A stretch of DNA of 64,000 nt from Desulfosporosinus sp. (GTDB taxonomy: Bacteria; Bacillota; Desulfitobacteriia; Desulfitobacteriales; Desulfitobacteriaceae), in contig JAIMKP010000001.1 of the NCBI GenBank assembly GCA_020692355.1, positions 99,165-163,164 on the forward strand. The letters run 5' to 3'. Positions 6,297-63,813 of this stretch are shown here, in pieces (the stretch's first letter is position 1; every line of letters starts with the position of its first letter). A program made the position numbers and the translations under genes. The notes below the pieces were generated by a model. The model did no database searches and was not told the DNA's origin. It saw only the letters and a program-made list of their open reading frames with translations.

Positions 6297-6770
6297 ATGT
6301 CTTTGGCTTTTGATAGTTGTGATAAGGAAATAATCGATATTCTGCAAAACGATTCATCAATATCCAATATAGAATTATCAAAGAAAATCGGATTATCGCC
6401 CTCTGCTTGCCTCAGTCGGACAAAGCGTCTTAAAGAACTGGGTGTAATAAAACAATTTGCTACTATCATCGATGAAAAAAAGGTTGGGTTGGAAATAGTT
6501 GCGTTTACTTTTGTCAATTTATCTCCGCATAATAGAAAAACGGCAAACGCCTTTCTATTAAAAGTTAAGGAAACGCCTAAAATTCTAGAATGTTATAACG
6601 TTACAGGCAGCTGGGATTATTTATTAAAGATAGTATCCCATGATATAGCTTCTTATCGTGATTTTATTATGGATTCGCTCTTGGAATTTCCAGGGGTAAA
6701 CAAAATCGACACAAACATCGTTTTAGGGACTGATAAACAAAGTTTCTGTTTACCTATTGATCAAGTATAA
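6297..6770 (+). CDS. Lrp/AsnC-family transcriptional regulator
   Basis: A 157-residue protein. The N-terminal winged HTH (IDILQNDSSISNIELSKKIG then LSPSACLSRTKRLKELGVI) is typical of Lrp/AsnC, and the C-terminal RAM domain (about 65-150) has ECYNVTGSWDYLLKIV and FPGVNKIDTNIVLG. RAM domains bind amino acids. A clear AAAGGAG site precedes the ATG. It ends 33 bases before the radical SAM gene and is probably co-transcribed, so it likely controls that gene in response to an amino acid or related ligand. It is visibly more AT-rich than its neighbours. Confidence 0.93.
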   Translation: MSLAFDSCDKEIIDILQNDSSISNIELSKKIGLSPSACLSRTKRLKELGVIKQFATIIDEKKVGLEIVAFTFVNLSPHNRKTANAFLLKVKETPKILECYNVTGSWDYLLKIVSHDIASYRDFIMDSLLEFPGVNKIDTNIVLGTDKQSFCLPIDQV

Positions 6771-6803
6771 AATTTATTAGCTGGATTGAGGAGGATTTCA
6801 GAG

Positions 6804-7937
6804 ATGAAAAATTATACTTTATTAAAAGCAGCTCTGCTTACGGAGGGAATCTGTTCTGATATCGAAAGTTTGACAGCAGTAGGCATAAACTATAAAGAGC
6901 AGAATCATGGGTTGTTTGGTTGGGATTTTGAAAATCATGTTAACCTCAAATTCCCTGATGATTTCTGTCTTCCGGATGGAACAGTTGTACAGTTCCGTTA
7001 TAATTCAAAATCACAATATCATGTGAAAACGTATGATGATAAATTAAAACTATACCTTAACGATCATGAAATTTGTGAGATTACATGGATAGAACGGCCT
7101 GATTTTTATAACAAGAAAACAACTCAAAATAATGCTATGGTTAAAATTGGTCAGATCGGTGGCAGGGACTGCTTGTTTTTCTGTTATCAAAACTACTGCT
7201 CCCATTTTAGCCATAATAAGCAATGTTCGTTTTGTAATCTTGTTACAACATCAAAAGTTTACAACTCTGTAATTAAGAAAAAAGATATCACTGATATTGG
7301 TGAAGTAGCTAAAGCGGCCTGGTCAGAAGGAAATGTTAATCACATATTACTTACTGGGGGATGTTTTAGTCACGAAAAGGAAGTTGCTATGGTTTCTGAC
7401 ATCATAGAATCTATAAAAAACCATACAGGATTTGAAAGAGTTCCCGGAATAATACTTCCCTCTCCTGCTAAAGGGGATGATATTAAACGTTATTTCGAAA
7501 CTGGGATCAATGCAATTGGATATAGCATGGAGATATGGGACGAAAAGTTGTATAAAGCAATATGTCCAGGAAAATCAGAAAGCACCTCGCATGCAGAATT
7601 TGTTGAATCCATTAAAACAGCAGTTAATATTTTTGGACAAGGAAATGTATTTATTGCTCTGGTAATGGGTTTGGAACCAAAAGAAACATTTTTACAAGGA
7701 ATTAAGACTCTATCTGCCATGGGTGCTAATATTGTTCCTTTTGTGTGGTCGCCCAATCCAGGTTCAAAATTAGAGGGTCATAGAGCACCATCTGCAGAGT
7801 GGTATTTTGATGTGATTTCAGAGGCTGCGGAAATTGTATATGATAATAAGATTCCTTCGGGTACAGAAAACCACTGCTATCAGTGTGATGGAAATTCATT
7901 ATTACATGACGCTTTACGATTAAAAGGCATTGCATAA
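6804..7937 (+). CDS. Radical SAM protein with unusual cysteine spacing
   Basis: A 377-residue protein of unknown product. The candidate iron-sulfur motif is CSHFSHNKQCSFC, i.e. C-x8-C-x2-C, instead of the usual C-x3-C-x2-C. LLTGGCFSHEKE (a GGE-like strand) and other TIM-barrel strands follow (GIILPSPAKGDD, INAIGYSMEIWDE, VFIALVMGLEPKETF). A further Cys pair near the C-terminus (HCYQCDG) may be structural. The ATG at 6804 follows GAGGAGG and is preferred to the TTG at 6786. The first 110 residues match no domain I recognise. It pairs with an Lrp-type regulator in an AT-rich island, suggesting acquisition as a unit and perhaps amino-acid or cofactor chemistry. Confidence 0.75.
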   Translation: MKNYTLLKAALLTEGICSDIESLTAVGINYKEQNHGLFGWDFENHVNLKFPDDFCLPDGTVVQFRYNSKSQYHVKTYDDKLKLYLNDHEICEITWIERPDFYNKKTTQNNAMVKIGQIGGRDCLFFCYQNYCSHFSHNKQCSFCNLVTTSKVYNSVIKKKDITDIGEVAKAAWSEGNVNHILLTGGCFSHEKEVAMVSDIIESIKNHTGFERVPGIILPSPAKGDDIKRYFETGINAIGYSMEIWDEKLYKAICPGKSESTSHAEFVESIKTAVNIFGQGNVFIALVMGLEPKETFLQGIKTLSAMGANIVPFVWSPNPGSKLEGHRAPSAEWYFDVISEAAEIVYDNKIPSGTENHCYQCDGNSLLHDALRLKGIA

Positions 7938-49613: not shown

Positions 49614-51110
49614 TTAAAATGGCTTCCAAATAGGATATCCTATTAAGGCCCACCAAGGAACCATAACAATGCTAATATAAAGGATGGCTAATAAGGTTAA
49701 CGGTGTTCCGGTTTTCATAAATTCTTTAAATGAGAATTCCTCTGACCCATAAGCCACGAGACAAGCTGTGACTTCCATGGGGAGGATCATTGCATAGGTA
49801 TCCAGATTCAAAATAGCCAGCGTAAAGGCAACCGAATTCATCTTTAAGAGAGGGGCCATCGCAAATACGATCGGAGCCATCAACGTAACAGCACCCACGT
49901 TACTAATGATCCCTAAACGTAAAACTTGAACCATTACCATGATAAAAATCAGTATACCGAACCAACCCCAAGCCGGAACTAAATTAACCATTTGAGTAGC
50001 AAGAAATTTATCAAGTCCTGTTTTGTCAAACGCCGTAACCAAGCTCAAAGCACCCGCTAAAAGGAACCATGTTCCCCAAATGGTTTTTTGCTGAACGTTT
50101 TTCCAATTTAGAGGCAATAGACCAGGAATGAAAACAATCCCAACAGCAAGCAAAGTGACGATACCTGTGTTAATTTTGTGGAAGCTTCCTGTTGCCCATA
50201 AAACGACTGCGATCAAAAAACAGGCCAAGACGGTCCATTCAGTTGCTGAAACCGGTCCAAGTTTCTGATGTTCTTCCTTAATCTTTTGCGTACCCCCGCT
50301 CACATCTACATTTTTTAATTTAAAACTTCTAACTATCCACCACCACATCATGGGAAACATTCCCAACATTGGCCAATGAATCCATAGCCAACCTCCCCAG
50401 GTAATACCCGCATGTGCCTTTGAGTTTAATATATTGGTCATAATAACGTTAGGCATATGCCCTGTCATAAAAACGGGAGCAGCGTAAACCGCGCCAAAAC
50501 CTATTCCGGCCATAGCCAGAGCTTTACGGGCTCTCTTTTCCTCAGGAGTGTCTCCCAGAAGCCTATTGACACCTTGAACAATTGGTAGATACATACCGGC
50601 TCTGGCAACAGTGGCCGGTACCAAGAGTGCACTGATAACATGGGCTACGAAAATACCCGACAATAGATTCGGTATCTTAGGTTTTACTTTAGAGAGAATG
50701 GTTAGGGCAATTCGCTTATCCACCCCTGTCACTTGCATTACAGCTGCCAAGATGAAGGCACCCAGACAGAGGAACGCCTCATTGCTCGTAAATCCGTTAA
50801 AAGCGTCAGCAGGTTTAGGAAGGGACCCGGTCAATACGAGCAACACAGGAATCATCAGACCAGAAATACTTTTGGGCAAGCCATCAGTAATCCAAATGAC
50901 TATAACCCAGCCAGTCGTTGCTAATACAGCCCTGGCTGCAGGACTAAATGCTTTGGATATAGGCACAAACTGAAAGATCCCAAAGAAGATGAACCAGGCT
51001 AAAATAAACCCAATAATTGACGTACGCGGACTCAATCCAGCTTCAAATGCGTTGTTAGTAAACCATAGTCTTTTTCCCGCTTCATCATTTTTTCTTTGAG
51101 GAATAGACAT
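49614..51110 (-). CDS. DASS-family (SLC13) anion transporter
   Basis: A 498-residue sodium-coupled or exchange carrier for dicarboxylates, sulfate or related anions. The ATG at 51110 follows GGAGGTG. About 12 hydrophobic segments are seen. Family features include SNEAFLCLGAFILAAVMQVT near the first helical hairpin and ISNVGAVTLMAPIVFAMAPL near the second. The last gene of the Apr/Hdr/Flx-like cluster, it starts 26 bases after FlxA, so it may take up the substrate of that system. The anion cannot be told from sequence. Confidence 0.88.
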   Translation of the reverse strand: MSIPQRKNDEAGKRLWFTNNAFEAGLSPRTSIIGFILAWFIFFGIFQFVPISKAFSPAARAVLATTGWVIVIWITDGLPKSISGLMIPVLLVLTGSLPKPADAFNGFTSNEAFLCLGAFILAAVMQVTGVDKRIALTILSKVKPKIPNLLSGIFVAHVISALLVPATVARAGMYLPIVQGVNRLLGDTPEEKRARKALAMAGIGFGAVYAAPVFMTGHMPNVIMTNILNSKAHAGITWGGWLWIHWPMLGMFPMMWWWIVRSFKLKNVDVSGGTQKIKEEHQKLGPVSATEWTVLACFLIAVVLWATGSFHKINTGIVTLLAVGIVFIPGLLPLNWKNVQQKTIWGTWFLLAGALSLVTAFDKTGLDKFLATQMVNLVPAWGWFGILIFIMVMVQVLRLGIISNVGAVTLMAPIVFAMAPLLKMNSVAFTLAILNLDTYAMILPMEVTACLVAYGSEEFSFKEFMKTGTPLTLLAILYISIVMVPWWALIGYPIWKPF

Positions 51111-51136
51111 AATAAAGCACCTCCAGCTTTCATCAT

Positions 51137-52012
51137 TCAATACTCAGAAGAATACCTCTTTAAATCCGCTAGTCTAAATACAGGTCCGTCCAGACACACA
51201 TAACATGAGCCAATATTGCACCGTCCGCATTGTCCGATGCCACACTTCATCCTCATCTCCAATGTGGTTAAAACTTCTTCAGCCGCAAAACCCAGCTCTT
51301 CCAAAACAACGATGCTATTCTTGATCATCGCAGGCGGGCCACAGACAAGGCAGACAGTGTTGTCCGGTGCAGGCTTCAGTTCCCGCAAAAGATTGGGCAC
51401 GAAACCGACGTGATGTTGCCAATCCCGATCTCCTTGATCCACCGTAAGGGAGATCGCAAAATCCTCAACCGCTACCCATTCTCCGGCAATTTCCCCTTTA
51501 AAGGCCAAATCCCCCGGTGTCCTGGCACCATAAACCAGGTGTATTCCGCCGAAATCACTCCGGTGCTTGATACAAAAGCGGACCAAAGACCGAAGCGGGG
51601 CTAGTCCGATTCCCCCTGCAACAAAGAGAAGATTTTTGCCCCGGCAAAATTCCAGGGGAAAACCGTTGCCGTAAGGACCACGTAAACCCACTATCTGCCC
51701 AGGCTCCACTTCATGCAAAGCACCGGTCAGCGCTCCCACTTTCTTGATGGAAAACTCCAAGTGATCACCCGCATCGACCCCGGAAAACATCCCTTCACCC
51801 ACACCTAGCAAGGAAAGCATAGCCACTTGACCAGGATTCAAAGAAAAGGGAACCTTGCCATCCAACCCAACAACATACAGCGTTTTTGTATCATGCGTTT
51901 CTGTTATAGCACGAGTGATTTGGGCCTGGACGGGAACAAGAGGATTGATACGCCGCACATCATCAACTCCAGCTAAACGCTGTCCTGAAAAGGCAGCAAC
52001 TTCAGGCATCAT
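51137..52012 (-). CDS. FAD/NAD(P)-binding reductase subunit (FlxA/AsrB/HydG type)
   Basis: A 291-residue ferredoxin-NADP reductase-fold protein. It has a FAD domain (GVDAGDHLEFSIKKVGALTG, LRGPYGNGFPLEF), an NAD domain (LLFVAGGIGLAPLRSLVRF, CLVCGPPAMIKN) and a C-terminal [2Fe-2S] site in CGIGQCGRCNIGSCYVC. In Flx and Asr complexes this subunit exchanges electrons with NAD(P)H. It overlaps flxB-like by 11 bases. Confidence 0.88.
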   Translation of the reverse strand: MMPEVAAFSGQRLAGVDDVRRINPLVPVQAQITRAITETHDTKTLYVVGLDGKVPFSLNPGQVAMLSLLGVGEGMFSGVDAGDHLEFSIKKVGALTGALHEVEPGQIVGLRGPYGNGFPLEFCRGKNLLFVAGGIGLAPLRSLVRFCIKHRSDFGGIHLVYGARTPGDLAFKGEIAGEWVAVEDFAISLTVDQGDRDWQHHVGFVPNLLRELKPAPDNTVCLVCGPPAMIKNSIVVLEELGFAAEEVLTTLEMRMKCGIGQCGRCNIGSCYVCLDGPVFRLADLKRYSSEY

Positions 52013-53018
52013 TTTCCACCTCTTTTACCAATTCCATGATCTTGGTAATCTCCAGACCGACCGGGCATTTGGCGAGGCAACGGCCACAGCCTGTACACAA
52101 ATACTTTCCGTAACGCTGAGGAAAATAGCAGAGTTTATGCATAAACCGCTCACGGACTCTTTCCCTTTTCCCCGGCCGGGGATTATGCCCTCCGGCCATG
52201 CGCGTATAGCCAGAAAACATGCAACTGTCCCAACAGCGGATCTTACTCCCGCAGTGGGCGTTGTCCAGCTTTTCGGAGATATCGAAACAATGACAGGCGG
52301 GGCAGAGATAAGTGCAAATTCCGCAGTTCAGGCACTTGCTCGCCACTTCCTCCCACAAAGGATGCTCAAACATTCCCGTCAATTTTTCGGTAATCCCTTC
52401 AGTCTCTACCTCTAACGCAAATTCCAGGGCAGGAACTGGGTTTTCCCGGCCGGAAACCGAGAGAAGATCATGCTTCTCCAATGTTTCCAGCAACAGTCGC
52501 CCTCTGTCCGAATTGGCCTCTAAACCATAATATTGATCATAATCATACATCTGCAGATCTGACTGGCGATGAGCCAGAGGATCAAGTCCCATGGACTGGC
52601 AAAAGCAATGAGGACCCGCTTTGGCGCAACTCAAGGCGATAATCGTTGCCGTTTCCCTCCGCTCTCTATAGAGTTCATCAACGAACTCTCCGTCCAGAAA
52701 CACATCGTCCAGACAAGTGATGGCTTGTAAATCGCATGAACGGATCCCAAAAAGGATCAACGGAGCATGATGGTCAGCCACAGGCTTAACCGTCTCCTTA
52801 CCACGCCCGGTTTCATAACGATAAAGTGTCTCTGTCGCTGGAAACAATATTTCTTTCGGGCTGATCGCCGTATTCGTTTGGAGCCAAACTTGCGTTTTTT
52901 CCCCGCCGTAAGGAACAAATCGGGTGATCCCGTTGCTTTCGGCCGGAACATATAGTTTTCCCAATCCGGCGAGAACATCTAAGACAAAATGCAAATCGCC
53001 CTTCTCCAAGAACATCAT
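52002..53018 (-). CDS. 4Fe-4S protein of the AsrA/HydB/FlxB type
   Basis: A 338-residue electron-transfer protein from the ATG at 53018 (RBS GGGGGTGAGG), starting MMFLEKGDLHFVLDVLAGLG. It has an N-terminal AsrA-type domain with GIRSCDLQAITCLDD and SCAKAGPHCFCQSMG. Two [4Fe-4S] motifs follow (CLNCGICTYLCPACHC and CTGCGRCLAKCP). It is the presumed partner of the FAD/NAD subunit. It overlaps flxC-like by 4 bases. Confidence 0.86.
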   Translation of the reverse strand: MMFLEKGDLHFVLDVLAGLGKLYVPAESNGITRFVPYGGEKTQVWLQTNTAISPKEILFPATETLYRYETGRGKETVKPVADHHAPLILFGIRSCDLQAITCLDDVFLDGEFVDELYRERRETATIIALSCAKAGPHCFCQSMGLDPLAHRQSDLQMYDYDQYYGLEANSDRGRLLLETLEKHDLLSVSGRENPVPALEFALEVETEGITEKLTGMFEHPLWEEVASKCLNCGICTYLCPACHCFDISEKLDNAHCGSKIRCWDSCMFSGYTRMAGGHNPRPGKRERVRERFMHKLCYFPQRYGKYLCTGCGRCLAKCPVGLEITKIMELVKEVENDA

Positions 53019-53992
53019 GCCCTCACCCCCTTCGCACACCGGAACAACCCGTCGAAATCCGGCCATCCGTACATTTCTAAAGGCGGTTTAAGCGTTTCAT
53101 CAATTCCGGCATCATAGGCCTCCAGCAGTTTGTTTACTTCTTGACCCAGAAACTGATTGAGAGCCATAAGCGGGATCCCCACAGGACAAACACGTTCACA
53201 TTCTCCGCACGTTGTGCACCGCCCGGCGACATGATAGGCCCGGATCAAAGCATTAAACATATTTTCGGTTGGAGACGAGCCTTTTCCCACCCACAGGGAA
53301 TGTTCCGAATCCATAATACATTCCCGGCAGGAACAGGCAGGACAAACATTGCGACACGCATAGCAACGAAGGCATTTGGAAAAAGCTTTCTGCCAAAAAT
53401 CATACCGGTCGTCAGAACTCAAACCTTCTAATCGTTCCACAATGCCTGAACTGACGTAACTTCCGTCTCCGGTCAGATCTCCACCCATCAGCCCTGTCCC
53501 TGCGTCCAAATCGTCCGGAACGTTCAAGGACTTGTCGACTACCGCTTCTCCGACGGTCCTGTCGGCATATACCGGATTGGGATAACGGCATTGCAAACAT
53601 TTGGAGAGCAACGGTAATTCATGAGGCTCTTTCTCATCGTTTACGGCTGATTGATCACGCATTCCTGCGCAAGGAACCCCTATTGCCACAATGTTTTCCT
53701 TTCGAACCTGATTGTCCTGAATCAGCCTGACTACGCTGCGGCTGTCGCACCCTTTGACAAAAACAGCCACCTTTTCATTTTTATTACGGTAGTCCAGAAG
53801 GTACCCGCTGAGATTGGGCACAGCAAATTGGTCATACCATAGCCTGCCTGCATCTTCCGGTTTCCTCACAAACACCGGTGGACTGAGATACCAGCGGCTG
53901 CCTTTTTCCCAACCAATTACGGTTTGTACGATACCTGTCTCCAATAACTCCCGTGCTATTTCCTGCATTTGCGCAATCAGCTGTTTCATCAT
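53015..53992 (-). CDS. 4Fe-4S protein (FlxC / F420-hydrogenase beta-like)
   Basis: A 325-residue protein. The N-terminal half has VFVKGCDSRSVVRLIQDNQV and IGVPCAGMR, then CLQCRYPNPVY. The C-terminal half has ferredoxin motifs CLRCYACRNVCPACSC and CTTCGECERVCP. It is encoded between the MvhD protein and FlxB with 4-base overlaps on each side. That tight coupling argues for a stable complex. Confidence 0.84.
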   Translation of the reverse strand: MMKQLIAQMQEIARELLETGIVQTVIGWEKGSRWYLSPPVFVRKPEDAGRLWYDQFAVPNLSGYLLDYRNKNEKVAVFVKGCDSRSVVRLIQDNQVRKENIVAIGVPCAGMRDQSAVNDEKEPHELPLLSKCLQCRYPNPVYADRTVGEAVVDKSLNVPDDLDAGTGLMGGDLTGDGSYVSSGIVERLEGLSSDDRYDFWQKAFSKCLRCYACRNVCPACSCRECIMDSEHSLWVGKGSSPTENMFNALIRAYHVAGRCTTCGECERVCPVGIPLMALNQFLGQEVNKLLEAYDAGIDETLKPPLEMYGWPDFDGLFRCAKGVRA

Positions 53993-54417
53993 TCATCCCT
54001 CAATTTCTTGTTGGGCCCCAAGGCTCGTACCGTTTTCTCCATCGCATTGATTCTGCCCGCCAGTGACTCAGTTTGTCCTTGATTCAGGCCAGCCCCAACC
54101 AGCCAAACCTGAAACCTTTCCGTCTCCAATCCCAAAAATTCCAGAAGCCTGCGCATCAGCACCAAGCGATTTAAGGTGGAAGAAATCCCTTGCGCCCAGG
54201 GGCAGCCACGACATTCGCCGCCAGCCAGAAAAAGCCCGTCCGCTCCCTTTTGCAGCGCCCTAACCACGAGTTGTGGATTCGCTCTTCCCAAACAAGGCAA
54301 TGTGATTAAACGGACTTTTGCGGCCCCCGCCGGACGGTCATCCCTACAATGCCTACAGGCAAAACCGACAATGAGCGGTTCCCATTGTTCGGAGACAGTC
54401 TCTAAGACATCCGGCAT
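53989..54417 (-). CDS. MvhD/FlxD-family iron-sulfur protein
   Basis: A 142-residue protein of the hydrogenase delta/FlpD family. Cysteine motifs are GFACRHCRDD, LPCLGRANPQLV and GGECRGCPWAQG. MvhD proteins bring electrons into HdrA. A second MvhD domain is present in the neighbouring 617-residue protein. The overlap with flxC-like is 4 bases. Confidence 0.85.
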   Translation of the reverse strand: MPDVLETVSEQWEPLIVGFACRHCRDDRPAGAAKVRLITLPCLGRANPQLVVRALQKGADGLFLAGGECRGCPWAQGISSTLNRLVLMRRLLEFLGLETERFQVWLVGAGLNQGQTESLAGRINAMEKTVRALGPNKKLRDE

Positions 54418-54431
54418 TTCTGTCCCCCCCT

Positions 54432-56285
54432 TTACTCTTCTCTAAACGGATTGGGGCCCAATTCCTGCAGCATATGCTCATAGTCGGACAGAATTTCAGC
54501 GATGGTCTTCGACATTGTTTCCATTCGTTTGTCCTGCACTTCAACCTCAGTCCGTTCGATCCCTTGGCAAAATCCCAGCACAGCGAGCGCTTCATTGATT
54601 GCAGCCTTCGCTTTCCCGGTTGGGTCAATCCTCTTGTCTCCGCAATAGTTCCACAAATCCAAGTGTCTCCAAACAACGCCATCAACCCGGACATCCTTTT
54701 GAAATTTTTTCATCCTTCCGTTGAACGCGCGGCAAGCCCCAATCACACTGCACCCGGAGTCTTTTTCTCCCAACTTTTCCTTTAGCTCTCGCCAACCTGC
54801 CGCAGTACAGAGCCTGTCAGCCACTATCACCGTACGGATGTCCTGCTCCCGCAGGCGCTCTTTCAGCAGGGGATAGTCCAGTTCCCTCTCTAATCTCCCT
54901 TCACAGGCACAGAGGACGACGAAATCTCGCCGGCTGGTCTTAGCCGTCCCCGTACACACGTTGTCCAATGCCTGCACCATACTGACATCCCCGCCATCCT
55001 GCAGCTGGCATGCTCCTGAGGGGCACGCCACAGAACACAATCCGCAGCCCCGGCATGCCAAAGGATCTCTGGCTGAAATCCATTTTAAGGTTCCGCAGCA
55101 GTCTCTTTCCAACACCGTTACTGCGTTAAACTGGCAAACATTCTGGCAAATAAGGCATCCATTGCATTTGCTTTCATCCACGAGCATGCCTGTGCTTACG
55201 GCTTCAGGCCAGCCTACATAGGCTACTCTCTCCGTTTCAAACATCATCCGTTGCAATGTCTCTTTGAGATTTTGCAAGCGTTGAGCTACCGCCTGATCTC
55301 CCCGCCTTTCCTTGCACGGGCCATATTGACATCCCAAAAGCATGACGCCGTCTATGCCGGAGGAGAGAGCATCTGTTATAAGTGCACTGTTAACCGCTCC
55401 CAGGCAGGGAACCTTAACCACCCGCAAATTGGCCGGCAAAAGAAATCCTTCGCTGATCTTGCTTTGCAAAGCGGGGTAAGTAAGCGACTCACAGGCAAAG
55501 GCCACCACCGTTGGCGCTTCACTACCATCGCCTTTCATCGATACGATCTCGCGACTCAGGTCATCAAGCTTGAAATTGGGCAGCGAAATGACCTGGAGCG
55601 GGCAGCTTCCTACACAAATACCGCACATCCTGCAAATGTCGGGATTTGCCTGCGGATATCCTTCCTGATCCAAGCTGTAAGCTTTTACAGGACATTCTTC
55701 CAGACACCGTTTGCACTGGTCACAACGCAGCCGGTTGATTGTGGCGCAATGTGCGCTATGCACCGGGGAAGGAGCGCTTTGCCGGGCACGATTGACAACC
55801 ATCTTCACGATGTCGGCGGCTGCCTCGGTGGGACGGGAGCCAGGATAAGACCATAAAACCATATCCCTTATGCCGGCTACCCTAATCGATGTTCGATATT
55901 CGATGTTTGATGTTTGAGTGAATGTATGCTTGCTGGCTTCCGCAAGACTTCGGGAGCCTTTTTCATCTTCTGTTGGTGCCACCGGGGCGGTATGGTGGTC
56001 TACTTGAAAAGCAGAAACATGATGCTCTTTATGCAATAAAGCATTTGCCAAGAGGCGGGGGATGTTATCTTCCAAACATGCTGCCAGCACTACGGTTTTT
56101 TGTTCTCCGCCTTGCAGCAAGCTTAACGCTTTCTCTCTCCCCTCAGGCAGGCAGAGGCGCTCTACGGCGTAAACCTTAGCAATACGCTTGTTTTTCTCCA
56201 GATTTTTGCTCAGACGCTCCCAATCCAGTTCTGCTCTGCCGCTGCCTTGGCAACGGCAGAGCAGAACTTCAATCACATCTGCCAC
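54432..56285 (-). CDS. HdrA-like/MvhD fusion without flavin domain, with duplicated end domains
   Basis: A 617-residue iron-sulfur protein. Residues 1-165 resemble the N-terminal domain of HdrA/QmoB (EVLLCRCQGSGRAELD ... VAGIRDMVLWSYPG). No GxGxxG FAD domain follows, whereas HdrA has one there. The next parts are two ferredoxin motifs (CDQCKRCLEECP, CRMCGICVGSCP), an MvhD domain (VVAFACESLTYP, VPCLGAVNS, GCQYGPCKERRG), two more ferredoxin motifs (CNGCLICQNVCQ, CRGCGLCSVACP), then a second N-terminal-like domain (VVLCACEGRLERELDY ... RHLDLWNY). A heptamer repeat is read in frame at 55887-55914. It is likely the electron hub of the cluster. Confidence 0.8.
   Translation of the reverse strand: MADVIEVLLCRCQGSGRAELDWERLSKNLEKNKRIAKVYAVERLCLPEGREKALSLLQGGEQKTVVLAACLEDNIPRLLANALLHKEHHVSAFQVDHHTAPVAPTEDEKGSRSLAEASKHTFTQTSNIEYRTSIRVAGIRDMVLWSYPGSRPTEAAADIVKMVVNRARQSAPSPVHSAHCATINRLRCDQCKRCLEECPVKAYSLDQEGYPQANPDICRMCGICVGSCPLQVISLPNFKLDDLSREIVSMKGDGSEAPTVVAFACESLTYPALQSKISEGFLLPANLRVVKVPCLGAVNSALITDALSSGIDGVMLLGCQYGPCKERRGDQAVAQRLQNLKETLQRMMFETERVAYVGWPEAVSTGMLVDESKCNGCLICQNVCQFNAVTVLERDCCGTLKWISARDPLACRGCGLCSVACPSGACQLQDGGDVSMVQALDNVCTGTAKTSRRDFVVLCACEGRLERELDYPLLKERLREQDIRTVIVADRLCTAAGWRELKEKLGEKDSGCSVIGACRAFNGRMKKFQKDVRVDGVVWRHLDLWNYCGDKRIDPTGKAKAAINEALAVLGFCQGIERTEVEVQDKRMETMSKTIAEILSDYEHMLQELGPNPFREE
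55887..55914 (-). repeat. Four in-frame heptanucleotide units inside the HdrA-like gene
   Basis: On the coding strand AACATCA-AACATCG-AATATCG-AACATCG. Three frames of the heptamer are used in turn, adding about ten residues (TSNIEYRTSI) at the end of the poorly conserved linker of the first domain. The flanking insert (SLAEASKHTFTQ) is also low in conservation. Confidence 0.8.
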
Positions 56286-56341
56286 CCCACAACCCCCTAT
56301 CTTTACGGCAACCCAACGGTCCGCGGAATGGATTGTCCAAA

Positions 56342-56674
56342 CTAATCCTCATCCTCGCTATTACGGTTTTTTACTACAAAGCGCTCCACCTTGCCGTTAA
56401 TATCAACACAAGTCCAAGTGATCCGGTTCGTACCCATCATCGGAATCAGCTTGGCCGGATGATACCCTATCTGATAGGGCATCCGCGTCTCAATCGCACC
56501 CTGCGGGCATACTTTGGTACAAGACATACAATCCCAGCAATCCCGCAGGTCACGGCATAAGGCTTTTCCGTTTTCACCCAAAGTCATAAGATTTCCGGGA
56601 CAAACCTGCTCACACAGAGGTTCATGCTCTGCTCTGCATCCGTCGCATTTGTTCAACAATACTTTAGGCGGCAT
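56342..56674 (-). CDS. AprB-like ferredoxin subunit
   Basis: A 110-residue protein from the ATG at 56674 (RBS AAAGGAGAG). It follows the AprB pattern: LLNKCDGCRAEHEPLCEQVC, then CWDCMSCTKVCPQGAIETR, then a C-terminal beta tail (MGTNRITWTCVDINGKVERF) like that which wraps AprA. AprB delivers electrons to the FAD of AprA. It lies between the aprA-like gene (93 bases) and the HdrA-like gene. Confidence 0.87.
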   Translation of the reverse strand: MPPKVLLNKCDGCRAEHEPLCEQVCPGNLMTLGENGKALCRDLRDCWDCMSCTKVCPQGAIETRMPYQIGYHPAKLIPMMGTNRITWTCVDINGKVERFVVKNRNSEDED

Positions 56675-56767
56675 ACTATGTCTCTCCTTTACTTTAATCT
56701 TCTCCCGACCATTTCCGTCCAAAATGGCCGGCAACTGAAAGTGGCTTGCCAATGTTATTTAGCGATA

Positions 56768-58519
56768 TTATAATGTAGGTTTCATACGGTGCCCTGCCAC
56801 AATCTGTACATAGGGCTTCAAGTACATTTCCACTTCCCCTGTTTCCAGGTTTACTCTGGAATTTACGAATCCATCCAAAGCCGGATCGACTTCGGGGTAA
56901 TCCATCCTTGTCTGCCACCCTGGCCAACGGGTCTCCCGCCGGAATTTGAGGTGCTGGATCAAGACTTCTGCCACATCCAGGCGGTCAATGACTTCATGTG
57001 CCAACATCAATTCATGCAAATCCTTGGCGTAAAGATAACGCAGTTGATCCTTCATCATTTTGATGTGGCGAAGAGCCTTGTCCAGCCGTTCCTCGTTCAT
57101 CCGGTAAAACTGCTGAACTCCGCCGGCATATTCATCCATAATCCGCTGCATTTTCTCTTCCATCAGCCGGGGGGCAATCCCGTCTTCATCGGCAACCAAG
57201 GGCGCAAAAACACGGCTTTTCTCCATGTCAATCTGGGCAGAGAAGTCGCCAGCCGGTTCTACGGCCTTTGAAATATACTGAACAGCCCCCCGGGCCGACA
57301 ACATTCCTTCAGCGCAACATCCGCCTACAAACTTATTGGGAACTCCGCCTGCAACATCTCCGCAGGCAAACAAACCGGGAAGCGTTGTCTGCCAATCCGT
57401 ATCGATCCAATAACCGCTTGCTGTATGCCCTCCGACAATGTAAGGGTCGCTTCCGTACACCTCTATGGGTTCTTGGCTAATGTCCTGAGCGTTGGCCGCC
57501 AAAAAGAGTACGAAAGAAGGTCTTTCATTGAGATAATCGGTTTTCATCTCTTTGATTTGGGCCGGGGTCATATGCCGGGTATCTACGTATACCGGGCCTC
57601 TTCCTGCGAGTACCTCTTCCATAGGGGCGCTCGCCCTGATATACCGAGGTGCTTTGTCCCCCCCTTGCTCCTGATACCGTTCTGCTAAAATTTTCTCGCC
57701 TTTAGCGTTGATCATAGGGGTTTTGTAACAAATCGAAATTGTATCGATGGGTCCGTTGAAATCCTTAGTCCGCACAGCAGCCCAGCGCATTTCAAAGGTA
57801 GTCATTTCTGCTCCCCGGCGGATACCTAGGGCGTAACCGGTTCCGACGTCAAACGGGCAGTACCAAAGCTGATGATGACAATCGTTCCCGTCATTCGTAT
57901 AGGGTTTATAGATGCCACCCGCGCCCCCGGCAGCCATAATGGTCGCCTTGGCTTTGATAACATAGAATTTTCCGTCCCTAACCCCAAACCCCATTGCACC
58001 CGCGATTCTCTCACCGTCATACAGAAAATTGGTGGCAACGACTCTATTGATTACTTCCACGCCCATCTCTCTTGTCTTTTCAGCCAGTATCGGCTTCATT
58101 TCCGAACCCTGAATGGCAATGTCCCACTGGCCCCGGAACTTATAGCTCCCGTCCTCGTTCTTCTTGATCGGTAAACCCCAGCTTTCCCATTCTTCAATGG
58201 GTGTATTAAGCAATTCGGCAATCCGCAGAGCGAGGTCCTCCCTTAAAATGCCACCCGCTTGAGCCCGGCTCCAACGGACTAGATCTTCCGGAGTCTTGCC
58301 TTCCGGGATATAGGTGTTAATCGCATCCATCCCTCCGGCCAAACAACCGCTCCGGTCAATATGAGCTTTCTCCATGATGGTCACTTTGAGGTCAGAATTG
58401 ATCTTTTTGGCCTCAATGGCTGCAAAGCATCCGGCATTTCCTCCGCCAATGATAAGGATATCGGTTTCTAATACTACCTCTTCAATCTTATGAAGATTTT
58501 CCGGAGCAGAATCCACCAT
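56768..58519 (-). CDS. AprA-like flavoprotein (APS-reductase alpha / fumarate reductase superfamily)
   Basis: A 583-residue FAD enzyme. The Rossmann motif is ILIIGGGNAGCFAAIEA (about 21-37). AprA-like blocks follow: HIDRSGCLAGGMDAINTYIP, RAQAGGILREDLALRIAELL and FEEW-like EEWESWGLPIK; further on come MAAGGAGGIYKPY and FACGDVAGGVPNKFVGGC. It is shorter than typical APS reductase (about 660). I could not confirm the AMP-binding residues, so APS may not be the substrate. It is the first gene of the Apr/Hdr/Flx-like operon. An exact copy of 136 bases of it reappears at the window end. Confidence 0.82.
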   Translation of the reverse strand: MVDSAPENLHKIEEVVLETDILIIGGGNAGCFAAIEAKKINSDLKVTIMEKAHIDRSGCLAGGMDAINTYIPEGKTPEDLVRWSRAQAGGILREDLALRIAELLNTPIEEWESWGLPIKKNEDGSYKFRGQWDIAIQGSEMKPILAEKTREMGVEVINRVVATNFLYDGERIAGAMGFGVRDGKFYVIKAKATIMAAGGAGGIYKPYTNDGNDCHHQLWYCPFDVGTGYALGIRRGAEMTTFEMRWAAVRTKDFNGPIDTISICYKTPMINAKGEKILAERYQEQGGDKAPRYIRASAPMEEVLAGRGPVYVDTRHMTPAQIKEMKTDYLNERPSFVLFLAANAQDISQEPIEVYGSDPYIVGGHTASGYWIDTDWQTTLPGLFACGDVAGGVPNKFVGGCCAEGMLSARGAVQYISKAVEPAGDFSAQIDMEKSRVFAPLVADEDGIAPRLMEEKMQRIMDEYAGGVQQFYRMNEERLDKALRHIKMMKDQLRYLYAKDLHELMLAHEVIDRLDVAEVLIQHLKFRRETRWPGWQTRMDYPEVDPALDGFVNSRVNLETGEVEMYLKPYVQIVAGHRMKPTL

Positions 58520-58738
58520 AACAATTCCTCCTTGCCTTCTTAGTGTTATAACAATGGTTCCTTAACTTTAGCTAGTCAACCGTCATTTACAGGAGGATTA
58601 TACCATGTGTTCACATTCACGTAAGTCGTATACAAGACATTAACCTGTTGTTTGTAAAAAAGTTGAAACTATTCAGATACCTGAAACAGTCAACACAAAA
58701 CAAGGGTACAAAGCACCCCGAGTTTATGAAGGTTTCAT

Positions 58739-58925
58739 CTATGAGCATGATGGAGGAAGGATAGATTTACCTTCGAATGCTGCTTGAATTCCCTCAATGA
58801 CAGAAAGTGATTGTTTCTTCAAGGTAGAAATCATCCCTCGTATACGGTAAAAGGTTTCGGCTCCTTGCTTGCTGCGAAACGTGACGGATATTTTCTGTTG
58901 AACCTTCATCTTCCGGACGCGTGGG
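58739..58925 (-). pseudogene. IS66-type transposase C-terminal fragment
   Basis: The end of a TnpC-like protein is readable (KMKVQQKISVTFRSKQGAET, then YRIRGMISTLKKQSLSVIEG), matching the C-terminal part of one IS66 branch. This sequence differs from the IS66 element at 60428. Nothing else of the element is visible. It abuts the DUF4338 remnant. Between 58520 and 58738 I see no gene, only the AprA-like leader region. Confidence 0.6.
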
Positions 58926-59443
58926 GGTATCCCAACCAATCGCTTGATCACGACAAGCCACCTTCCAAGCGGCTGAACCAAAAAGCAAACAGGCCAGCGG
59001 GCGACGATACCGGCCGAAGACAATACATTTCATGTTCTCACCGACGATACCGCTGAATCCCGAGGTAATGGTACTCCGCCGGCAAATGATTGAACAACCT
59101 TAACGTTTGAGAACTCTGAACGACCTCAATGGCAAGCGGGGTAAAAATCCGTAGATGACATTGTAGTAACATGTTCTACTACTGCTTTGTGGCACTTAAA
59201 CGTATTACCGTCGGCGGCACTTCTTCGTTCAGGCAGGTGCAGGTAACCACGGCGTTCTAACTTAAGTAGCATGCTCCGGCAAACCATATCTTTCAATTGG
59301 CAATTGGCCGCGCCCCAGTTCCAAACCCCACAAATTTCCTGGGACAATCAGGCCCGATGCCACTGCGGGTTACTCTCGATCAATTTTCGAATCCAATCCA
59401 TATCTTTTTCAGTGAGGAGTCGTCCCTGAATCGTTATTTCCAT
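58926..59443 (-). pseudogene. DUF4338-type (DruA-like) transposase-related remnant
   Basis: ATG at 59443 begins MEITIQGRLLTEKDMDWIRK. A TGA then interrupts before SQEICGVWNWGAANCQLKDM and SMLLKLERRGYLHLPERR. Further broken segments resemble the family (MKCIVFGRYRRPLACLLFGS, AAWKVACRDQAIGWDT). The gene is full of stops and shifts and is cut by the IS66 fragment. DUF4338 proteins include mobile-element proteins and DruA of Druantia; nothing here is functional. Confidence 0.6.
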
Positions 59444-59506
59444 TCATAGTTCAATAATAAACGAAAAGTTGATCAGAATTGAGGATATTTATTTGCTCTA
59501 AATAAA

Positions 59507-59535
59507 TTAAGAAGGCTAGTATTGGCCTTCTTAAT
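59507..59535. terminator. Hairpin downstream of crp/fnr
   Basis: TTAAGAAGGCTAGT/ATTGGCCTTCTTAA, about 11 paired bases with A/T ends. It is 130 bases beyond the crp/fnr stop codon on the minus strand. Confidence 0.65.
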
Positions 59536-59661
59536 TATCCCTCTCTATTTTTATTGTTTACTACATCGTCACTTTTCTCCAGAGTTCCACGCGATTGTAT
59601 GTCTGCTCAGTGACTGCCTATGAAACCTTACCTCTCATTGTTCTTAATTTCATAGCTTTTA

Positions 59662-60348: not shown

Positions 60349-60517
60349 TTTACCCCCTCCATTCCATCAAGACCCGGTATTCTGACATTCGAACGGGAAT
60401 TGCCGATATCAAGTATTTAAGCTATTTGTAAGCGTCAAAACGTATACACCTAGCATCATCCCCCGGTCTATAGGATAATTTTCCTCAGAAGAAAACGAAA
60501 TGAGGAGGATTTTCTTT

Positions 60518-60841
60518 ATGATTAAAACCGAACGGCAAAAAGAATGGGAAAGCCTTATCTCCAATTATCGGACCGGCGGCCAGAGTGCTAAAGCGTGGTG
60601 CGCAGCCCATGATGTGACGCCCCGGCAGTTATGGTATTGGCTCCGGAAGTATAGGACCAAGGACAATGCTTCCCCTGTCAACTCAACCAAATGGTTACCG
60701 GTCGAAGTTGGTGAGCAAGCGCCCACGCATGAAGATAGTCCGATGCTGGTCAAAGTGGGCAAGGCCAGCATCGAGGTGAAACCCGGCTTTGATTCGACGC
60801 TATTCTCTGAAGTAGTCCATATACTGGTCGCGTTATGCTAA
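60518..60841 (+). CDS. tnpA: IS66 accessory protein TnpA
   Basis: A 107-residue IS66 OrfA from the ATG at 60518, after a GAGGAGG site. It starts MIKTERQKEWESLISNYRTG and has an HTH-like segment SAKAWCAAHDVTPRQLWYWL. It overlaps tnpB by 7 bases (translational coupling). It appears intact. Confidence 0.9.
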   Translation: MIKTERQKEWESLISNYRTGGQSAKAWCAAHDVTPRQLWYWLRKYRTKDNASPVNSTKWLPVEVGEQAPTHEDSPMLVKVGKASIEVKPGFDSTLFSEVVHILVALC

Positions 60842-61191
60842 ACGAAGTCGGCATCGATCGGGTTTATCTCGCCTGCGGCGCTACTGATTTACGCAAGTCG
60901 ATTGACGGTTTAGCCGTGCTCATGAAGGAAGAATTCGAACTGGATCCTTTTTCATCTTGTCTTTTTGTTTTTTGCAATCGGCAACGCGATAAACTGAAGA
61001 TTCTCCAGTGGGAGCATAGCGGCTTTTGGCTCCATTATCGTCGGCTGGAGCGAGGGAAATTTCAGTGGTCACTGGATACCGGTTCTGGAACCCGAACGAT
61101 TAGCCGCCGCGAGTTACGCTGGTTGCTCGATGGTCTCTCCTTAAAGCAGCATAAGGCACACCCTGAAGTGAAAGAGCGTACCATCTTATAA
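60835..61191 (+). CDS. tnpB: IS66 accessory protein TnpB
   Basis: A 118-residue IS66 OrfB. The signature VYLACGATDLRKSIDGLAVL is followed by LFVFCNRQRDKLKILQWEHS and GFWLHYRRLERGKFQW. It is required with TnpA and TnpC for transposition in IS66 elements. It appears intact. Confidence 0.93.
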   Translation: MLNEVGIDRVYLACGATDLRKSIDGLAVLMKEEFELDPFSSCLFVFCNRQRDKLKILQWEHSGFWLHYRRLERGKFQWSLDTGSGTRTISRRELRWLLDGLSLKQHKAHPEVKERTIL

Positions 61192-61297
61192 AGAACCATA
61201 AGACGAAATTATTTTCGTTTTTTAGCGTATTTTAGAGGACATTAGCAGTGATTTGTCGAATTATTAAAGTATAAATACGATACCGAATAATACGATT

Positions 61298-63813
61298 ATG
61301 ACAATAGATCATTTTCAAAAGCGCAGTGTTGAACTCGAACAGCGCTGTGTTTTGCTCGAACGGCAAAACGCTGAACTGGTTGCCCGAGTGAAATGGTTCG
61401 AGGAACAGATTCGCCTTAGCCAACAGCACCGTTTTGGCTCTTCCAGCGAGAAGACAGTTCCGGGGCAAAAGCAGCTCCTTATTTTCAATGAAGCAGAGGC
61501 ACAAGCACAGCCTCTCTTAGCGGAACCTACCGTGGAAACGATTACCTACACGCGCCAAAAAAAGCAACACAGCCAGCGTGAATTGATGCTTAAAGATCTG
61601 CCGGTTGAGACGATTGAACACCGCCCACCTGTCGAAGAGCAGGTCTGTCCATGTTGCGGTGGTTCAATGCATGAAATGAGCACCGAGGTACGGCAATAAC
61701 TGAAGGTTATTCCAGCCTAAATGAAAGTGGTTAAACATGTGCGCTACGTTTACGCCTGCCGCCATTGTGAACACAACGATATCACCACGCCCATTATCAC
61801 GACCCCGATGCCTACGTCCGTGCTTCCGGGGAGTTTAGTGTCTCCCTCCGCAATGACGTACATCATGAACCAAAAATATGTAGAGGGGATGCCCCTTTAT
61901 CGTCAGGAGCAGCAGTTTGCCCGTCTTGGCATCGTATTGTCCCGTCAGACCCTCTTCAACTGGATGCTCCATGGGGCGAACAAGTGGTTAACGCTGCTCT
62001 ACGACCGCATGCATGAGCACCTGCTGAAAAGGGACATTCTGCACGCCGACGAAACGACCTTGCAGGTACTCCATGAACCGGGCCGGGCTGTTGAGACAAC
62101 GTCATATCTCTGGCTCGATGAAGCGCTGAAGGCTTTGCCGGATTCAAGACGCGCGGCAGCCGTGGTAGCCAAGGAGGGGTTAGAGTTCTGCAACCGCCTC
62201 TTTGCCATTGAACGCGAATTGAAGAACGCTACTTTGGAGAAACGTTATGAAAAACGTTTGGTGCGCAGCCGCCCCGTGCTGGATGCCTTCTTGGCGAGGC
62301 TTAAACTCCAAAGTTCACAGGTGTTCCAGGTTCATAACAACAAACTAGCATAATGACACTTTCGGCAGTCTTTTTCAGCTTTACCATGATTCGGCCCAGG
62401 CCATTACGGCGTTTACCTACTCCAAAGCCTCCTTCGACCGCATTGCGTTCTCTCATGTCTTGCCGTTCTAGGCGTTCTCTATGTTTAACTTCTCCGGCTG
62501 CCGGCGGCCCAAGTGAAGGGCCACTCAGTCGGATACCATGCGTTTTGCAATATGCCCGGTTATCCCGAGTTCGATAGATTTGGTCGGCCAGGACGGCTTC
62601 CGGATAGTACCCATATCGCTTTTTTGTACGCTTCCACGGCCTGCTGAAAGTTGCGACCTTCGTTGAATGAATCCCAACACTGACCGCGACTTTAGCCCCA
62701 AATTCTACCGCTGCTTTAGCTTTGCCACGGACGATGGGACGGACATGAGGTTGACTGATACTGACTATTCGGTTGGAGATTTGATGACTCTTCGCGGTGT
62801 ACATGCTTCGTTGTTGTTGGTAAAGGATACGAATGGTTTCTAATTCTTGGTTTTGGCGGCCATCTAAGTTCCCGTGGCCCTCCAACGAAAGGAGGTGTTC
62901 TATTGTTTTGAGGTTCCTTCCCAGGTATCCTAGTTATTTGCCGATAGCTTTACAAATCGCCTGGGGTTTTTTCTGCTTGGCAATCTTCAAATAGTTTTGG
63001 CGTGCTTTTTTTCGGTAGGTGTTACGAAAATGAACCATCAGGGAGGGGTCAAAGGGTGGTTTCATCTGGTAGCACTCAAGCCCTATAAAGTATTACAAAT
63101 ATGGATTTTCGGTAATTTGCTCTACGGTTTCACGATCCGTAAAACCACACTTTTCTTTGATAATGAGGGCACCTAATGCTGTGCGTAAGGGCTTAGCTAC
63201 AGTACCGGTCCCGGATGGAAACAGCTGCGCATATTTCTTTTCGATCTTCTCCCATGGAATAAGTTCAGCGAGTTTTACTCATCGATTATTCGCATCAAGT
63301 TTTCCTTCAAAGGGGAGAACGAAATCTTTGATAACCATCTGGCCGTAAGGATGTCGGTCCATAATGTCCCTCTAAGTGCACGGTTTTTAACCTGTTTTTC
63401 GTAATTTCCTTGCATTAGAGTTCGACATAAAGGACCCTAAACCCTTGTTTCATCCGTATTTTGAGGCTATTCAGCAAGCCCCAATTAAGTATTGCCTGAA
63501 CCAGTGGGATAAGTTCAATGCCTTTTTGCAAGACGGACGCTTGGAACTCGATAATAACCGTAGTGAACGCTCGATTAAACCCTTCGTGATTGGTCAGAAT
63601 TGGCTGTTTGCCAACACCCCGCGGGGTGCCCGGGCCAGCACCATGATTTACAGCATCGTAGAAACGGCGAAGGAGAATGGCTTGAATCCCTTCCGCTATC
63701 TTAGTTATCTCTTCGAAGAACTTACGAACCTGGATACTAAGGATAAGAATCCCTTAGATAAGCTGCTCCCGTGGTTCGAATCCTTACCCCTTGTCTGCCG
63801 GGTTACTAAATAA
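61298..63813 (+). pseudogene. tnpC: IS66 transposase tnpC, two nonsense codons and an internal IS
   Basis: The N-terminal coiled region is 61298-61696 (LEQRCVLLERQNAELVARVK, then FGSSSEKTVPGQ and CPCCGGSMHEM). A TAA follows after VRQ, and a second TAA nine codons later; the same frame then resumes ([20 protein letters not shown]) through the DDE core ([12 protein letters not shown]) to about 62310. The last domain resumes at about 63430 (NAFLQDGRLELDNNRSERSI). Both stops look like single changes of Gln/Glu codons. The gene cannot make a full transposase. Confidence 0.88.
62301..63362 (-). pseudogene. Nested IS5/IS1182-like (DUF772-type) transposase with three stops
   Basis: ATG at 63362 begins MDRHPYGQMVIKDFVLPFEG. 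The frame continues to 62301 with three in-frame stops (TGA after DANNR, TAA after NPYL, TAA after AIGK). The N-terminal part (ALGALIIKEKCGFTDRETVE) is DUF772-like and the C-terminal part (ERQDMRERNAVEGGFGVGKR) is the DDE-type end. It lies opposite to tnpC and interrupts it. Exact IS ends (near 62312 and 63425) and inverted repeats could not be fixed. Confidence 0.75.

Follow-up and report, generated by a model that had tools for sequence, protein, structure and literature searches.

The 64,000 nucleotides of Desulfosporosinus sp. DNA analysed here (contig JAIMKP010000001.1, positions 99,165 to 163,164; hereafter the window) contain on the minus strand, at 49614-58519, eight called open reading frames (ORFs) that unite an AprA/AprB-like flavoenzyme, an iron-sulfur hub, NAD(P)H-linked proteins and an anion carrier of the DASS/SLC13 type. 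The cluster is real and recurrent across phyla, and its flavoenzyme is a variant of the reductases acting on adenosine 5'-phosphosulfate (APS) or 3'-phosphoadenosine 5'-phosphosulfate (PAPS), probably with a new substrate. As for the class of reaction, we lean toward a sulfite-generating respiratory module that acts on an imported small sulfo-anion, a reading we hold to be rather probable; thiosulfate itself, the leading guess for this anion, is put forward only tentatively. The DASS carrier would import the anion, reduced flavin adenine dinucleotide (FAD) would attack its sulfonyl sulfur by the flavin-N5-on-sulfur chemistry of APS and PAPS reductases, the leaving group would depart and sulfite would be released. 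The electrons would come from NAD(P)H-linked iron-sulfur proteins, and the sulfite would pass to DsrAB and to DsrMKOP-type proteins encoded elsewhere in the same genome. We infer import, substrate, product, direction, electron path and operator function. Papers are cited below by PMC number.

The evidence for this reading starts with the AprA-like protein itself. It scored 397.9 bits against the aprA model TIGR02061, under the cut-off of 641.75, and its partner 77.8 bits against the aprB model TIGR02060 (cut-off 135.65). The looser model NF005331 (adenylyl-sulfate reductase alpha) was passed with 641.1 versus 557 bits, as it was by a PAPS reductase-like paralogue of the same genome (921.3 bits). 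Compared with the PDB, the protein matched the PAPS reductase of Methanothermococcus thermolithotrophicus (MtPAPSR, 8a8o) best, with 530 bits to its alpha subunit, APS reductases reaching 345. The protein shares its fold with fumarate reductase/succinate dehydrogenase, and a fold search with the AprA model put PAPS reductase first and fumarate reductase a close second, both ranked over APS reductase, which does not settle the function. A search for related loci gave 98 relatives, of which the best 80 were kept. In a tree of 74 rows, the window family, 13 PAPS reductase-like proteins, 30 true AprA proteins and three further copies each fell on one side of a branch with full support (100) in the SH-like approximate likelihood-ratio test; the order among these four groups was weak (support 77). 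For this tree, computed by a quick method, every third family row and the window protein were taken, 28 of 81 in all; it carries a long-branch warning and lacks MtPAPSR among its rows.

The active site points in the same direction. The residues that hold the sulfuryl group in the APS reductase of A. fulgidus, N74, W234, R265 and H398, correspond to N68, W219, R250 and H365 and are kept in 81 of 81 members as well as across all four clades of the tree; their role in holding sulfate at the FAD is described, together with the roles of the other residues of that enzyme, in PMC2211403. The phosphate, ribose and channel positions are changed: G274 is replaced by D259, Y95 by W83, H446 by N395, F261 by W246 and Q145 by D133, each in 81 of 81 members, and F277 by S262 in all 28 members sampled. 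At the G274 position, all 46 proteins of the other three clades carry Gly, and at the E141 position Arg is found in the family, in the PAPS reductase-like clade and in the three further copies. Since the sulfuryl site is kept while the phosphate/ribose site is changed, we read the protein as one that would retain the sulfuryl chemistry, a nucleotide not being its substrate. True APS reductase was rejected as an identity on the separate clade, the failed TIGR02061 and TIGR02060 cut-offs and the altered nucleotide-site residues. A PAPS reductase of the Methanothermococcus type was rejected as well, on its separate clade and on Q131/W132/D133 in the place of Lys120/Arg121/Ser122. An earlier note on this DNA, made from the sequence alone, had treated the protein as AprA-like and distinct from APS reductase; the analysis agrees, as the protein lies outside the true AprA clade, has changed nucleotide-site residues and no sat or dsr neighbour. 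In the PMC open-licence literature, we found no paper describing the family as separate, nor is it described in the excerpts of PMC4759654 and PMC10504309. A search among plasmids turned up a 45% relative in Ilyobacter and no other.

The genomic setting provides a destination for sulfite. The assembly comprises 3.36 Mb in 101 contigs, is 100% complete and belongs to the same family as the genome of Acididesulfobacillus acetoxydans (locus L011, genome G003 = G048). It encodes dsrA, dsrB, dsrM, dsrK, dsrO and dsrP on another contig than the cluster, a true aprA was not found in it, and sat gave no match across the whole genome. The window holds no dsrA (E <= 1e-45) and no sat match. The earlier statement that the window lacks sat and dsr agrees with this for sat and dsrA, and for sat extends to the genome, but a dsr operon lies on the other contig. 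The organism is equipped to use sulfite; lacking both sat and a true aprA, it is probably unable to respire sulfate. Just before dsrAB (L134:1485-4856, G000:C13) stand a second DsrK-like gene (538 aa) and a gene for a CoA-disulfide-reductase-like flavoprotein (559 aa).

A further contig of this genome (L133, G000:C41:1-14000) carries an assimilatory operon, a bacterial equivalent of the PAPS reductase system of Methanothermococcus. It encodes a MoeB/ThiF-like protein, an AsrC-like sulfite reductase, O-acetylhomoserine sulfhydrylase, APS kinase, a PAPS reductase-like AprA (575 aa), CysD and CysN, and an ORF of 110 aa occupies the position of AprB. Because this genome dedicates a separate paralogue and operon to (P)APS reduction, the window cluster appears to be additional to it. 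In addition, two PhsA/PsrA-like molybdenum oxidoreductases exceed the NF012032 cut-off (L171, G000:C89; L172, G000:C86).

The association with dsr extends to the relatives. Matches to dsrA (E <= 1e-45) were found in 45 of 48 and 29 of 32 hosts, that is in 74 of 80 genomes (our own and those of 79 of the 80 loci), 71 of them over the family cut-off, and the dsrA-bearing hosts include Bacillota, Deltaproteobacteria, Nitrospirae and Chloroflexi records. In a survey of 82 genomes of the class (query P0001, E <= 1e-100), 16 contained members with at least 69% identity. All 16 have dsrA (15 over the cut-off, one split between two places) versus 26 of the 66 others (25 over the cut-off, one split; p = 4e-6, or p = 4e-5 with over-cut-off counts only), the genomes being related and thus not independent evidence. 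Among 48 host genomes, sat is present in 33 and a true aprA in 31, the latter as a separate gene scoring 845-1171 bits where the window family scores about 370-424. In five genomes the true aprA has a further AprA-type gene at a distance of about 2.5-5.5 kb, which scores 431-453 bits with the aprA model (G015:C51; G016:C23, L165; G019:C29; G020:C141, L166; G029:C4, L167); the three examined form the fourth clade of the tree. G025:C26 and G026:C11 (Moorella stamsii, L040; L041) each carry, some 5-7 kb away from the main dsrA, another gene of the dsrA type that is divergent (239-259 bits).

The carrier, AprA and AprB form a core which recurs in the loci named here and is thus not a product of chance. 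AprB is present in 79 of 80 loci (L060 ends at aprA), and its Cys 36, 39, 47, 51, 72, 75, 78 and 82 together with W73 are conserved in all 80 aligned sequences. A DASS carrier is encoded in 57 loci, a TTT carrier in 12 and neither in 11. Seven of these 11 have a gene of the TauE/SafE type, upstream of aprA in L066, L067, L068, L074, L075 and L076 and downstream in L039, assigned by Pfam in L039, L066, L068, L074 and L076 and by strong similarity in L067 and L075; L048, L055 and L062 are cut by contig ends and L087 shows no carrier. TauE/SafE is a family of carriers for sulfur compounds. Furthermore, 7 of 80 loci have, by similarity, genes for PhnD-like binding proteins close to the core, confirmed by Pfam in L043 and L065. 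The DASS gene is last in the window and stands directly before aprA in most DASS-bearing relatives. Its product has altered SNT motifs, PAT and SNV, and a first-motif SNT occurs in none of 55 aligned DASS proteins; the substrate role of the two SNT motifs is taken from PMC8652582. Among the 96 nearest-neighbour ORFs scanned (of 116; 20 were omitted by hand without a fixed rule), no carbon-skeleton enzyme was conspicuous among the 25 families listed out of 133, whose top count was 3.

A gene for a CRP/FNR-family regulator, which the earlier note had overlooked, lies about 1.1 kb upstream of aprA. Its product has CRP/FNR regulators and CooA among its sequence relatives in the PDB and is predicted to be the activator of the operon. 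In 49 loci the sequence extends for 3.5 kb or more in both directions; all 49 have a CRP-family gene within 6.5 kb of aprA, 41 have DASS and 6 have TTT. Any CRP-family ORF above 40 bits was counted here, without a background control, as family-level similarity that does not imply orthology. The palindrome T[AG]TC-N8-GA[CT]A stands ahead of the operon's first gene in 51 of the 80 regions (the window and 79 loci, one of the 80 loci giving no usable region; the window is not among the 51), compared with a mean of 1.0 and a maximum of 5 in 200 shuffles. Perfect palindromes are 59-fold denser there, with 34 in 34,143 bases versus 22 in 1,294,771 bases elsewhere in the loci. The palindrome was found by an inverted-repeat search and then counted on the same regions; since the loci are related, these counts are not independent. 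Several of the 22 lie at TauE-type (L032, L067, L074, L076), PhnD-like (L050, L057) or CRP genes (L014, L015, L050). In L076 the operator falls within the TauE-type ORF, at its 5' end as called; the start of this ORF was likely placed too early. The window, L009, L011 and L012 share a spacing of 21 bases between operator and TATAAT, and because of this spacing the regulator would be a class II activator acting at the putative operator. The strict operator was not found on the plus strand of the dsr stretch of the same genome (L134), the plus strand of five stretches having been covered. A match about 1 kb before dsrA in L169 has the other half-site and was discarded as likely due to chance.

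With regard to the electron module, the eight genes are transcribed in the order AprA-like, AprB-like, hub, MvhD/FlpD, FlxC-like, AsrA-like, AsrB-like and DASS, with distances of 15, 56, 14, -4, -52, -11 and -4 bases. If the AsrA-like start is moved to the internal Met17, the overlap of 52 bases shrinks to 4, and the AprB-like protein more likely starts at Met27, where the aprB model begins. Family searches identify FlxA/B/C/D-type subunits in the AsrB-like, AsrA-like, FlxC-like and MvhD proteins, to which the Flx names presumably apply. The earlier description of eight same-strand genes, several of them overlapping, in which an AprAB-type flavoenzyme is accompanied by NAD(P)H-linked proteins of the Flx/Asr type and by an anion carrier, holds. 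The gene order pointed to in that note is partly shared with other genomes: the core recurs widely, and hub, MvhD, FlxC, AsrA and AsrB follow one another as in the window in L011 and L012.

Two other expectations of the note fared less well. It had assumed an HdrA-type hub, but this protein falls short of a complete HdrA. A single FlpD domain is surrounded by four CxxCxxCxxxC motifs, the best stretch to the HdrA2 model NF040770 covers profile positions 569-749 of 777, hence only the C-terminal ferredoxin/FlpD part, and neither a FAD family of Pfam nor a Rossmann GxGxxG motif was detected in it, where the HdrA of L014 has GGGIAG. The absence of a FAD domain is judged from sequence only, the structure model of the hub being of too low quality (pLDDT, the predicted local distance difference test score, 52.6). 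Identity to the hubs of L009-L012 is 43-49%. We rejected a classic bifurcating HdrA in the window operon on the undetected FAD domain, and bifurcation at this hub is not supported. Since the hub shows no FAD family or Rossmann motif, the electrons likely take a linear path, which would lead from the AsrB-like FAD/NAD(P) protein, the predicted entry of NAD(P)H, via the AsrA-like and FlxC-like proteins, MvhD and the hub to AprB and AprA. A weak FpoF-like stretch in the FlxC-like protein might leave room for one more flavin. No CCG-domain protein, thus no HdrB or HdrC, was found with Pfam among the eight window genes, although both occur in other relatives.

Nor is the electron module the heart of the system, as the note would have it, for it varies while regulator, carrier and AprAB recur. 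The short FAD-less hub with MvhD and Flx/Asr proteins is found in L011 and L012 and in part in L009, which ends within FlxC, and L010, which shows only hub and MvhD. Other loci have a full-length HdrA with Flx/Asr proteins (L046, L049), HdrA with HdrC and HdrB (Moorella, Nitrospirae and other records), or HdrA with a short HdrC, a hub of about 395 aa or no module that could be found (Desulfosporosinus, Desulfovibrio). The full-length HdrA of relatives was recognized as FAD-bearing by Pfam in L014 and by length in the others, and bifurcation is possible there. In a Nitrospirae record (L056:17202-21049), NuoF/NuoG-type NADH proteins follow HdrA-HdrC-HdrB and may be a further electron source; so may a NuoF-type protein and a group A6 [FeFe] hydrogenase encoded divergently next to the Moorella stamsii copy (L040:3217-6860).

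Compared with known systems, the cluster is in many ways a composite. MtPAPSR (PMC10322725) resembles the AprA-like protein in its short alpha subunit of the same length class, the FAD-enzyme type, the sulfuryl residues and the Arg at the E141 position, and it is the best match in the PDB and by fold. PAPS reductase-like proteins fall in another clade, the three residues named above differ, and the window cluster is without APS kinase or ATP sulfurylase, whereas the paralogue on L133 stands next to both. Dissimilatory AprAB (1jnr, 2fja, 3gyx) agrees with the window proteins in the AprA/AprB type, in N74, W234, R265, H398 and R317 and in donors of the Hdr/Qmo type. In contrast, the window proteins form their own clade below both model cut-offs, E141, Q145, G274, F277 and H446 are changed, and sat is absent. 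The FlxABCD-HdrABC complex of sulfate reducers (NADH dehydrogenase/heterodisulfide reductase; PMC4759654) likewise combines FlxA/B/C/D-type proteins with an HdrA hub, the hub of the window being HdrA-derived; however, HdrB and HdrC are missing from the eight genes, the hub has no detected FAD domain, and the output would go to AprBA. The orphan AprAB of Bilophila wadsworthia and Taurinivorans muris, compared here by published description, are also AprAB-like and without sat. That of Bilophila has been interpreted as an APS reductase (PMC11610557), and T. muris respires thiosulfate without PhsABC, its AprAB standing without sat or qmo (PMC10507020). Candidatus Bilophila faecipullorum (L077, G043) contains a member of the family with a TTT carrier and a CRP-family gene, and no Hdr/Flx module was found beside this copy. 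The genome also holds a second AprA-type protein of 33% identity, and the family occurs in one of four genomes of its genus, the other three being small (1.5-2.0 Mb). PhsABC would catalyse the same net reaction if thiosulfate were the substrate, the window version being a soluble flavoenzyme with a carrier. PhsABC is an unrelated molybdenum enzyme.

What else could such an enzyme do? Within the same class of reaction, an organic sulfonate or sulfate ester of the sulfoacetate or sulfolactate kind might be reductively desulfonated. This competes with thiosulfate for the same share of our confidence and adds nothing to that of the class; taken alone, we consider it unlikely. Organosulfonates suggest themselves from the carriers, which they fit at least as well as thiosulfate does: TTT carriers are putative sulfolactate importers (PMC10507020), some loci have TauE/SafE-type carriers, and the PhnD-like binding proteins in 7 of 80 loci suggest an XO3 group. 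The two PhsA-like proteins already in the genome also favour them. Carbon, however, would be a poor leaving group for N5-on-sulfur chemistry, and no carbon-skeleton enzyme stood out among the annotated core neighbours. Thiosulfate, our leading guess, fits the chemistry best, since it offers a good leaving group and leaves no carbon skeleton behind. An unsaturated di- or tricarboxylate, taken up by DASS or TTT and reduced by a fumarate-reductase-like enzyme with sulfur uninvolved, has the fold in its favour and is nonetheless distinctly unlikely, given dsrA in 74 of 80 hosts, the APS reductase sulfuryl-site residues kept in every member, the TauE/SafE-type carriers in some loci and the altered SNT motifs. 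The dicarboxylate offered as a substrate by the earlier note is thereby weakened, and its alternative, a carrier-borne sulfo-anion, is strengthened by the dsrA of the hosts and by TauE/SafE where DASS is missing.

Very unlikely, in our view, is a working APS or PAPS reductase that uses external nucleotide, as proposed for Bilophila wadsworthia. This organism lacks sat and has two AprAB-like clusters, and its growth improved with 10 mM APS, as it did with sulfite or taurine (PMC11610557); NF005331 names the AprA-like protein an adenylyl-sulfate reductase alpha subunit. Against this stand the changed nucleotide-site residues in all 81 members, the score far under the TIGR02061 cut-off and the true aprA that 31 of 48 hosts have besides the AprA-like gene. 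To our knowledge, none of DASS, TTT and TauE/SafE carries nucleotides. Least probable of all is the oxidative direction, in which sulfite would be joined to an acceptor, the product exported and the electrons passed to NAD(P)+ or ferredoxin. TauE/SafE proteins can be exporters and APS reductases have been discussed in both directions (PMC2211403, PMC10322725), but MtPAPSR, the nearest solved relative, gave no reverse reaction (PMC10322725) and the layout of carrier and enzyme looks like substrate uptake.

Several observations weigh against a sulfite-generating module fed by thiosulfate or a similar anion. DASS and TTT carriers usually move carboxylates, and TauE/SafE proteins could export the product sulfite rather than import the substrate. 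The midpoint potential of thiosulfate, about -0.4 V, is demanding for NADH without bifurcation. The adenine site partly remains, since R317, its clamp, is kept and L278 is Val or Ile, mostly Val. The association with dsr is partly shared ancestry, as many hosts are sulfate or sulfite reducers anyway, and six hosts show no dsrA match, five labelled as metagenome-assembled genomes and one another draft. Two PhsA-like proteins are present and may already serve thiosulfate, which weakens the need for a further thiosulfate reductase. In T. muris, which respires thiosulfate, the orphan AprAB was transcribed but not detected in the proteome (PMC10507020).

Table 1. Features of the cluster and its upstream region (window positions).
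Feature	Position	Strand	Remarks
AprA-like FAD reductase, 583 aa	56768..58519	-	sulfuryl site N68/W219/R250/H365; signature W83/R129/D133/W246/D259/N395
AprB-like two-cluster ferredoxin subunit, 136 aa as called	56342..56752	-	TIGR02060 77.8 bits; eight Cys and W73
Iron-sulfur hub, 617 aa	54432..56285	-	FlpD between two CxxCxxCxxxC pairs; HdrA-derived, FAD domain undetected
MvhD/FlpD protein, 142 aa	53989..54417	-	PF02662, 66.7 bits
FlxC-like 4Fe-4S protein, 325 aa	53015..53992	-	Fer4_8; weak FpoF-type similarity, residues 11-114
AsrA/HydB-like 4Fe-4S protein (FlxB-like), 354 aa	52002..53066	-	TIGR02910 182 bits (cut-off 323.15); Fer4_22
AsrB/DHODB-like FAD/NAD(P)-binding protein (FlxA-like), 291 aa	51137..52012	-	TIGR02911 181.1 bits (cut-off 288.6); NAD_binding_1, DHODB_Fe-S_bind
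DASS/SLC13-type anion carrier, 508 aa	49614..51140	-	TIGR00785 224.7 bits (over cut-off 198.6)
CRP/FNR-family regulator, 228 aa	59662..60348	-	Pfam cNMP_binding and HTH_Crp_2
Predicted operator TGTCTTGTATACGACT	58624..58639	-	single mismatch to family palindrome T[AG]TC-N8-GA[CT]A
Predicted -10 hexamer TATAAT	58597..58602	-	21 bases past operator; by sequence

The ORFs were taken from a simple caller, in whose output some genes of GC-rich DNA are hidden by antisense ORFs. The stretch of about 1.1 kb separating aprA from the CRP gene (58520-59661) shows only a 94-aa ORF and part of the surroundings of a 134-aa ORF. Beyond the CRP gene, on the side away from aprA, 60500-62353 holds transposase-like ORFs that resemble IS66. 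Elsewhere in the window, positions 6297-7937 have a GC content of 34% versus roughly 50% for the window and encode a regulator resembling Lrp/AsnC and a radical-SAM-like protein of 383 aa, both named by eye. Outside the core of the related loci, six Desulfosporosinus-type loci share an ABC transporter of the SBP_bac_3 type, and up to five loci have a sensor kinase/ABC block; these blocks are probably shared synteny of one genus.

Taken together, one catalytic core is combined with interchangeable carriers and electron modules, and the operator makes the regulon testable. The gene aprA serves as a marker of sulfate reduction, and many genes of this family are labelled adenylyl-sulfate reductase in databases. 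If our reading is true, genomes without sat have been misread, probably including those of gut sulfidogens, where the label led to a model of APS cross-feeding (PMC11610557), and related gut genes, for example in Bilophila, are probably misread as APS reductase. Asp at the G274 position, Asp at the Q145 position and Trp at the F261 position provide a signature for quick re-annotation. Furthermore, the family offers a candidate for the sulfite source that dsr-bearing organisms lacking sat would need, and also for the enzyme by which thiosulfate is respired where PhsABC is missing; for T. muris this point is stated to be open (PMC10507020). One might speculate further, at about even chances, that a cassette of regulator, carrier and flavoenzyme spread across several phyla imports thiosulfate or another small sulfo-anion and yields intracellular sulfite for DsrAB without ATP activation or a molybdenum enzyme. 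Evolution would then have swapped three kinds of carrier and several electron donors around it, and the 'aprA' of sat-less sulfite reducers, Bilophila included, would belong to it.

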